From Xanthomonas sp. SI (GTDB lineage Bacteria; Pseudomonadota; Gammaproteobacteria; Xanthomonadales; Xanthomonadaceae): a stretch of DNA of 64,000 bases. The position numbers and the translations under genes were made by a program. A model generated the notes under the pieces. The model worked only from the letters and a program-made list of their open reading frames with translations, was not told the origin of the DNA and ran no database searches. Of the stretch, positions 1,977-8,610 are shown piece after piece; position 1 is the stretch's first letter, and each line of letters opens with the position of its first letter. The DNA lies in NCBI RefSeq assembly GCF_014236855.1, contig NZ_CP051261.1, positions 3,844,001-3,908,000 of the forward strand, in the 5' to 3' direction.

Positions 1977-2087
1977 GGTGGCCCCGTCGGCCCCTCGCGA
2001 CGCTAGGTCGAAAACTCCGCCAGGGCCGGAAGGCAGCAACGGTATCGATCGACGCGGGCGCCGAGGTCAGCCGGCGGGGTCGCCACC
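1977..2087 (+). ncRNA. ffs: 4.5S signal recognition particle RNA (small bacterial type)
   Basis: RNA core of the signal recognition particle, which binds Ffh and targets membrane proteins to FtsY. The diagnostic apical domain CAGGGCCGGAAGGCAGCAAC is at about 2022-2041. The two ends can pair (GGTGGCCCCG at the 5' end with CGGGGTCGCCACC at the 3' end), giving one long hairpin of about 111 nt, close to the length of E. coli 4.5S RNA. CTTTT follows the 3' end. The ends are set from base pairing and could be off by a few bases. The last 45 nt of the gene form the first copy of the downstream tandem array. Confidence 0.9.
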
Positions 2088-2523
2088 CTTTTCCTGAAAA
2101 CACATCCGCCAGGCAAATGCAGTCACTTCGACCGGATGGGTGCTAGCAAGCTGCGGCTGTGTCTCGCGCAGTGCCGCAAGCGTCGATCCTGGCCAGTCGT
2201 TGGCACCGGCCGTGGCGACGGCGCAACCATCCCCGCAACGGCAGCATTCCCACGGCGCGTATCGATCGACGCGGGCGCCGAGGTCAGCCGGCGGGGTCGC
2301 CACCCTTTTCCTGAAAACACATCCGCCAGGCAAATGCGGTCACTTCGACCGGATGGGTGCTGGCAAGCTGCGGCTGTGTCCCGCGCAGTGCTGCAAGCGT
2401 CGATCCTGGCCAGTCGTTGGCACCGGCCGTGGCGACGGCGCAACCATCCCCGCAACGGCAGCATTCCCACGGCGCGTATCGATCGACGCGGGCGCCGAGG
2501 TCAGCCGGCGGGGTCGCCACCCT
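2043..2523 (+). repeat. 217-bp tandem repeat (2.2 copies) starting inside the SRP RNA 3' arm
   Basis: A 47-bp segment containing the SRP RNA 3' arm occurs at 2043-2089, 2260-2306 and 2477-2523, exactly 217 bp apart. The 170-bp spacers between copies 1-2 and 2-3 are the same sequence with only four differences, all transitions. After the third 47-bp copy the sequence diverges. Reading frames through the array (both strands) are repeats of one another and show no protein signature, so I treat this as non-coding. The 2524-2649 stretch after it, up to moaE, shows nothing recognisable. Confidence 0.95.
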
Positions 2524-2649: not shown

Positions 2650-3078
2650 CTACGCCTCCGGATGCAACCAGCCGGCGCCGCCTTCGTGATAGCGCTCGTG
2701 CTTCCAGATCGGCACCCGCGCCTTGACCTCGTCGATGACGTAGCGGCACGCGTCGAACGCCGCGCCGCGGTGCGCCGCGACCACGCCGACCCACACCGCC
2801 AGGTCGCCGATCGCCAGGTCGCCGATGCGGTGCACGCAGCGCAGGTCGAGGATGCCGAAGCGGGCCAGGGCTTCGTCGGCGATGCGCCGGCCTTCGGCCT
2901 CTGCCAGCGCCGCATAGGCCTCGTAGCGCAGGCCATCGACCGCGCGGCCGTCGTTGTGGTCGCGTACCCAGCCTTCGAAACTGGCGTAGGCGCCGGCCTG
3001 CGCATGCGCCAGCGGCGCGCGCAGCGCGGCGATGTCCAGGGCGCTGTCGGCAAGATGGAAGCGGTGCGTGTCGGACAT
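2650..3078 (-). CDS. moaE: Molybdopterin synthase catalytic subunit MoaE
   Basis: Large subunit of molybdopterin synthase: with thiocarboxylated MoaD it inserts two sulfurs into cyclic pyranopterin monophosphate in the cytoplasm. At 142 residues it has the family length. The conserved FEGWVRDHN near residue 34 is present, as are the lysines of the VKARVPIWKHERY block, K119 and K126, the same positions as the catalytic lysines of E. coli MoaE. The ATG is 3 bp after the moaD stop, so it ends the moaC-moaD-moaE run and is probably translationally coupled. Confidence 0.96.
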   Translation of the reverse strand: MSDTHRFHLADSALDIAALRAPLAHAQAGAYASFEGWVRDHNDGRAVDGLRYEAYAALAEAEGRRIADEALARFGILDLRCVHRIGDLAIGDLAVWVGVVAAHRGAAFDACRYVIDEVKARVPIWKHERYHEGGAGWLHPEA

Positions 3079-8123: not shown

Positions 8124-8528
8124 TCAGGACGCCGCGCCGCGGTAGTCCTGGTAGGACTTCTCTTCGACGTAGCTGGAACCCAGTGCCAGGTTGATCTCCT
8201 TCTTGATCCGCGCGCGCTCGTCGTTCTCGTAGTACACGCTGCGTGCGAGCTTGATGAATTCCTCGTCGAAGGCCTGCGCCTTCTCCTTGATCCGGATCTC
8301 GTCCTCGATCACCCACAGGCGCTCGTTGACCGCCTTCAGCTCCAGGCGCAGGCGGGCGACGTCGCCGCTGGCGGCCGGATGCGCCATCCAGGTCTTTTCC
8401 AGCGCCGACAACTCCGCGCGCACGTTGGCCAGCTTGGCCGCATCGCCGATGCGCTCGGACTTGATCTGCAGGATGGCGATCTTGTCGAGCAGTTCGCCGA
8501 AGGACACGGGGACGAGGATTTCGGACAT
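8124..8528 (-). CDS. DUF6165 family protein
   Basis: A 134-residue soluble protein matching the small family now called DUF6165, found next to LPS or surface-polysaccharide genes in several proteobacteria. It opens MSEILVPVSFGELLDKIAILQIKSERI (in two halves) and is mostly charged helix with coiled-coil-like heptads between residues 30 and 110, including KAVNERLWVIEDEIRIKEK. No signal peptide or membrane segment. The function is unknown. A GTG two codons upstream is an alternative start; no strong ribosome site distinguishes them. Confidence 0.75.
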   Translation of the reverse strand: MSEILVPVSFGELLDKIAILQIKSERIGDAAKLANVRAELSALEKTWMAHPAASGDVARLRLELKAVNERLWVIEDEIRIKEKAQAFDEEFIKLARSVYYENDERARIKKEINLALGSSYVEEKSYQDYRGAAS

Positions 8529-8610
8529 GGGCACACCCAGGCGAGAGTTGAGAGGAAGTGTAACCAGCAGGCCTTAAAGCCATGTCGGCGCAGCGTGGTC
8601 GCGGCCGTCA

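Follow-up and report, generated by a model that had tools for sequence, protein, structure and literature searches.

The tandem array that follows ffs, the 4.5S SRP RNA gene, in the window (the whole stretch of 64,000 nt that was analysed) is best explained, with a probability that we put at about 0.55, by insertion of a small non-autonomous element of ∼70 bp, the gene end being rebuilt through a long duplication of the target and the units amplified later by recombination. The ffs gene of this Xanthomonas is one of the sites used by a gene-end element family, and the element is not specific to SRP. The preliminary description of this stretch had envisaged an SRP-specific element of 217 bp, which finds no support: the recurring part is ∼70 bp long and is also found at parE, sbcB, tRNA-Lys and pseudopilin genes of other genera.

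The array after ffs and its counterparts in Xanthomonas

The features of the array and its surroundings are (window coordinates, strand):
1984–2080, + strand: ffs, 4.5S SRP RNA gene, intact (full-length match to RF00169, model 1–97 of 97, 65.5 bits)
2042–2089, + strand: 48-bp segment copy 1, the working ffs 3′ end plus 9 nt (exact repeat)
2090–2188, + strand: left arm of unit 1, 99 bp (spacer 1 scores ≤15 against the flanks of 11 element-free species)
2189–2258, + strand: hairpin element copy 1, 70 bp, ending in ..GGCGC (exact match; family consensus)
2197–2222, + strand: conserved box of element 1, with the hairpin GCCGTGGCGACGGC on its 3′ side (pattern match)
2259–2306, + strand: SRP 3′ segment copy 2, directly abutting element 1 (exact repeat)
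2307–2405, + strand: left arm of unit 2, with four transitions relative to unit 1 (unit comparison)
2406–2475, + strand: hairpin element copy 2, identical to copy 1 (exact match)
2414–2439, + strand: conserved box of element 2 (exact match)
2476–2523, + strand: segment copy 3, probably the original ffs 3′ end, now 434 bp further downstream (flank similarity to G003, G016 and G019)
2524–2649, no strand: native intergenic flank between ffs and moaE (flank comparison with element-free species)
2650–3078, − strand: moaE, convergent, downstream of the array (PF02391)

The exact repeat is 48 bp long and is present in three copies at spacings of 217 and 217; each copy consists of the last 39 nt of the 4.5S RNA and 9 nt past ffs. 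The preliminary description was right about the three copies, the exact period and the intact flanking gene, and also about four transitions between the spacers, but its segment of 47 bp is 48 bp long and its 170-bp spacers measure 169 bp by the boundaries of that repeat. The 217-bp units are 98% identical, with differences at four of 217 sites, all four of them transitions and all in the spacer, and each spacer terminates in one of the 70-bp hairpin elements. No Rfam family was found between 2085 and 2650 at E ≤ 1. A search of the whole genome with the unit gave five matches at E ≤ 0.001, of which three are the members of the array and the others short pieces of 29 and 31 bp (E 9.7e-4), so that the window's genome holds no further copy of the 217-bp unit outside the array. 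We also considered whether the element itself has many copies in its own genome, and rejected this: both matches with 0–1 mismatches fall inside the array at ffs, and beyond these there are two matches with three mismatches, compared with one in the reversed control.

The relatives compared were 20 Xanthomonas genomes, which is everything that the genus search covered; their ffs loci were oriented and the units cut out. Units are present in nine of the 20 species and absent from 11, and as their number ranges from one to three, the copy number is not uniform: G017 has three, the genome of the window (G000), G006 and G010 have two, and G002, G009, G007, G014 and G015 have one each (the unit of G015 is decayed and was recognised by eye and with the unit script). 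Because these separately assembled relatives hold units at the same place, an assembly error, which had been named as an alternative, is an unlikely source of the array. Aligned, the 14 units from the nine species (one unit is degenerate) have in common ∼70 bp beside the SRP copy (CTGGCCAGTCRTTGGCACCGGCCGTGGCGACGGC...GGCGC) and the SRP copy itself, which begins at two different points (∼48 nt or 25 nt of repeat). The variant of ffs found in a species, CGCC or TTACC, is also that of its copies in eight of the nine species; the copy of G015 is decayed. On a tree of the flank sequences the presence of units takes six changes, five of them forced by starred branches. The units of G000 and G017 differ at 4–9 per ∼215 sites, compared with 45 of 700 on the moaE side; a recent origin, exchange or homogenisation may account for this.

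The flank past copy 3 in the window aligns with the flank of the sole ffs end in three element-free species (G003, score 70.0 over 106 nt, end to end; G016, 42.5; G019, 36.0), the largest score of 200 shuffles being 17.5. The other eight element-free species score 8.5–17.5, within chance, so this agreement holds for only three of the 11. The alignment of G000 with G003 contains one 432-bp gap and a 2-nt indel. The third copy is probably the original ffs 3′ end because what lies downstream of it corresponds to the flank of the lone ffs end in G003, G016 and G019. The spacer of the first unit is unlike the native flank (score ≤15 against the 11 element-free species), and the clear duplication is therefore ∼48 bp, with a separate left arm of 99 bp. 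The earlier proposal that something small entered at the end of the SRP gene, whose 3′ end was recreated, is supported by this agreement of the flanks and by the copy numbers, which vary between species.

A hairpin element with a fixed right end at unrelated genes

A relaxed consensus pattern matched in 65 of 395 genomes of the family, belonging to 13 of 54 genera, with 134 places listed compared with 15 for the reversed-pattern control. There are 1–9 places per matching genome, many of them in tandem at 84–220 bp; those read were all except the places of G196, G030, G381, G178, G193 and G069, two of G113 and one of G261. Most of the fetched places are 3′ ends of ffs and parE, a 3′ end of tRNA-Lys, and 5′ ends of sbcB and of pseudopilin genes. 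A scan of genome contigs gave 25 stretches, including X. bonasiae, Xanthomonas sp. F10, NCPPB 1128 and two Stenotrophomonas records away from ffs; of the 25 we read the two from Stenotrophomonas, three others and those from Xanthomonas.

At parE (TIGR01055), sbcB (NF008746), tRNA-Lys and the ffs genes of other genera, fetched loci show the element and, after it, a second copy of the end of the adjoining gene. At sbcB (exodeoxyribonuclease I) it is the 5′ end that is copied, with the gene pointing away, so orientation to the target is not fixed. Occupancy varies within genera. At ffs in genus g16 there is a match in 37 of 38 genomes, and the 30 loci read comprise 14 with the element, two decayed and 14 without; at parE in genus g29 (match in 46 of 46) the 30 loci read comprise three with the element, one apparently decayed and 26 without. 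The order element, gene-end copy, native flank is seen in G317, beside the empty site of G310. In G313 (parE) and some other arrays the element is joined straight to the flank at the array end, and in some arrays elements and gene ends are equal in number.

The consensus of 109 elements is CCGGCkAT-TCATTGnnnCCnGCCGTkGCGACGGC-about 36 nt-GGCGC, 70 bp in all. The right end is fixed: the box is followed by 34–38 nt ending in GCGC in 133 of 175 boxes, compared with 8.0% at shifted positions. Removal of places fetched twice reduced the 175 boxes to 146, of which 109 have the same right end; the 37 without GCGC at 34–38 nt, some of them chance matches in coding sequence, were left out. The left junction is loose: genera g13, g16, g28 and g29 mostly have a few extra nt there, and up to ∼30, and the arms of Xanthomonas and g17 are longer. 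Unlike the window, with its 99-bp left arm, several other genera have the element almost directly next to the duplication. The consensus structure (105 rows, three of 108 being left out of the fold) has only four nearly invariant pairs, all in the box hairpin, and covariation as support for a structure was uninformative on the aligned elements. No transposase was found accompanying the elements. In a tree of 108 elements (one locus left out; 72 columns, poorly resolved) grouping by locus takes 10 changes for five classes and grouping by genus 14 changes for six classes, the locus labels coming from motif rules with some corrected by hand. Locus sorts the elements about as well as genus does, a pattern as compatible with long residence as with mobility.

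In 76 of 133 cases a copy of sequence from further upstream starts no more than 3 nt from the right end, compared with two of 665 shuffled right segments. These shuffles serve as the control; pairing of different loci gave 20 of 149 at ≥15, a figure inflated by loci of the same gene. Among unique elements 61 of 109 have such a copy, 58 of gene ends and three of element or spacer sequence (two at gsp, one in an ffs array). The gene-end copies are distributed as 32 of 43 at ffs, 20 of 25 at parE, four of nine at sbcB, two of three at tRNA-Lys, none of 11 at other places and none of 18 at gsp, where the genes sit on the right and the test was built for a gene on the left. The first base of the copy is G in 59 of 61 and its length is ∼27–100 bp, and at each of these unrelated genes the copied end is the local gene's own. 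Copies at ffs have six or more clearly different start points in the SRP gene (GTATCG, GGCAGC, GATGCG, GGTCAG, GGCGCC, GGSYGCC), which argues for several events. The right end of an array's last element is without any copy in 41 of 74 cases, among them all 11 at other places; of the 33 last elements with a copy, three bear element sequence instead of a gene end.

In genus g28 (L119, L170, L176, L178, L180, L181, L183, L187, L188 and L189) the element lies just 5′ of type II secretion pseudopilin genes, three of which have matches to GspG and GspJ, and an open frame runs through the element. It is predicted that the right end can provide the leader (..VSRGDGI...RQR before GFxLIE), and at some of the genes a start codon would come from it too. 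At L190 (G261, C11) an element interrupts an apparent REP palindrome, with TAGGAGCGCGCCATGCGCGC-like arms on both sides as judged by eye.

Insertion, templated duplication and other origins

In the preferred explanation, a non-autonomous DNA element of ∼70 bp would insert beside gene ends and duplicate its target, at ffs from inside the 3′ arm of the 4.5S RNA. The gene would survive, since its 5′ part would be followed by a newly made copy of the 3′ end, with the old end shifted downstream. The 48-bp direct repeats would then allow tandem units of 217 bp to be gained or lost, by slippage or unequal recombination, consistent with copy numbers that differ between species (e.g. two units in the window and three in G017). 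We infer that the target is duplicated in the same event that inserts the element, and that the units were amplified by recombination; the insertion and the amplification named in the preliminary description may each have played a part. Insertion with target duplication explains arrays of N elements and N+1 gene ends with the native flank past the last copy. Against it stand the 41 of 74 last elements without a copy and the arrays that finish with an element joined to the flank, and precise loss through recombination between repeats would likewise give empty sites.

The same copy-less last elements and element-to-flank ends, together with the grouping by locus, make template switching at a resident hairpin a serious rival, which we hold to be possible but not probable; both processes may act. 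Here the hairpin would be an old resident that hardly moves: a new strand would stop at ..GGCGC and restart upstream in the gene end, giving tandems of gene end plus element. A constant right end combined with a varying copy start is what such local duplication would leave, as are arrays with equal numbers of elements and gene ends, clusters of elements by locus, and the duplications at the right end that reach back into element sequence (L187, L193; three of the 61 listed copies). The order element, gene-end copy, native flank, in the window and in G317, needs a further loss of the last element, and local duplication gives no account of how the element reached ffs, parE, sbcB, tRNA-Lys and gsp. 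Retroposition in the manner of a SINE, by target-primed reverse transcription of a 70-nt RNA, would also produce an exact right (3′) end, a loose 5′ junction and long, variable target duplications such as those of ∼27–100 bp seen here. It is nevertheless improbable: no reverse transcriptase (PF00078, E ≤ 0.001) was found in the window's genome, although one since lost could have acted earlier, the family is found in two of nine element-bearing Xanthomonas compared with seven of 11 element-free ones (one of these below the family cut-off), and the sbcB sites have another orientation to the target gene.

Duplication of a gene end is a classic sign of site-specific integration, and the array could be read as the scar of an integrative element or prophage that used ffs as its attachment site, with the 48 bp as att core; an integrase-like frame, read by eye, lies at the nearby tRNA-Ser of G013. 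We consider this very unlikely, as one and the same 70-bp element occurs with different gene ends and with varied copy starts at ffs, unlike a fixed att core, and viral contigs hold no exact match to the SRP 3′ end (phages gave three short weak matches, best E 0.02). Nothing that we found implicates an integrase. A plasmid origin was rejected as well: of 12 records in the plasmid collection, 11 are weak (E 0.006 or more) and one is the SRP gene itself, not the element. That record, NZ_LR134413.1 (filed as a Legionella adelaidensis plasmid), is SRP RNA-like at 8488–8566 (81% over 80 nt, query 8–87, E 1e-10). The least probable origin, which we hardly credit, is a functional RNA array, comparable to E. 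coli rttR at tRNA-Tyr or made of SRP decoys. Part of the element can pair with the SRP copy in a predicted fold, but the fold energy is no better than that of shuffles (z about 0), the pairing partner remains GTGGCGAC where ffs became TTACC, Rfam gave no match at E ≤ 1, 11 of 20 species have no array, and only four hairpin pairs are nearly invariant.

It is a doubtful step further to see in these elements a new class of transposition, in which a 70-bp element with one exact end would insert beside gene termini, copy the neighbour's own end (∼27–100 bp) to its far side and so land harmlessly in essential genes (ffs, parE, tRNA), and in one genus may supply the leader of type II secretion pseudopilins. 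If the insertion reading is right, a tiny element could land at the ends of essential genes (those for SRP RNA, topoisomerase IV and a tRNA) without harm, because the gene end is rebuilt whenever it inserts. This would be one possible explanation of puzzling arrays at gene ends, e.g. the E. coli tRNA-Tyr repeats, and would indicate a new chemistry of insertion or template switching in which one end is exact and the target duplications are long. The simple signature of the element makes this testable in public strain collections.

Comparison with known systems and further observations near ffs

Genomic islands and prophages that integrate into tRNA genes rebuild the 3′ end of the gene and displace the old one, as in the arrays described here. 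The 70-bp core in a 217-bp unit is, however, too short for an integrase gene, and none was seen; moreover, several target genes and at least six start points at ffs differ from the constant att core of such islands. Bacterial MITEs are small and non-autonomous and make target duplications of 2–10 bp. The element is likewise small, non-autonomous and associated with a target duplication, but at ∼27–100 bp its duplications are neither short nor of fixed length. Terminal inverted repeats are not visible by eye in the consensus (left CCGGCkAT, right GGCGC).

The nearest layout is that of the 178-bp repeats (rttR, tpr) at E. coli tyrT/tyrV, which are tandem units 3′ of a structural RNA gene, each with the 3′ end of that gene. 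Their spacing is 178 and the repeat of 203 nt extends 19 nt into tyrV; no match to the element hairpin was found in them within two mismatches. A single tRNA locus was examined there, whereas several kinds of gene carry the element here.

REP sequences, which are linked to RAYT transposases of the IS200/IS605 type, are also short, hairpin-bearing and dispersed in Xanthomonadaceae. Y1_Tnp (PF01797) is found in 18 of 20 Xanthomonas (nine of nine element bearers and nine of 11 non-bearers), a distribution too even to be informative about a link with the element. According to Table 1 of PMC2817692, Xanthomonas REPs begin with GTAG and number from 9 to 223, and a passage of the same paper states that IS200/IS605 members make no larger target duplications. 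Compared with the REP heads given there, the element has no GT(A/G)G head, and CCGGCkAT-TCATTG precedes its hairpin. With 1–9 places per matching genome it is not a high-copy sequence as REPs are, and it is often joined to gene-end copies. A search of open-licence literature yielded no paper for the letters of the element's hairpin.

A second small insert with a gene-end copy lies at 1631–1894 of the window, where a tRNA-Ser(GGA) carries an insert of 129 bp (1735–1863), after which the tRNA's own 3′ end is repeated; Rfam sX4 spans this tRNA and part of the insert. The 129-bp sequence also matches near ffs in G006, G007, G010 and G014, and in G015 it is found at tRNA-Ser(CGA), with the end of that tRNA. 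Beside ffs, the 3′ end of tRNA-Ser is accompanied by an integrase-like frame in L017 (G013) and by a transposase-like one in L014 (G019), both read by eye. In G019 there are also 21 Y1_Tnp matches that are nearly identical and have a single in-frame TAG apiece: an expanded IS200-like family in which this stop interrupts every copy. G005 has, apart from ffs, a further SRP-like 3′ half that has diverged (L029, C1:185562–185617; 88% identity over 56 nt).
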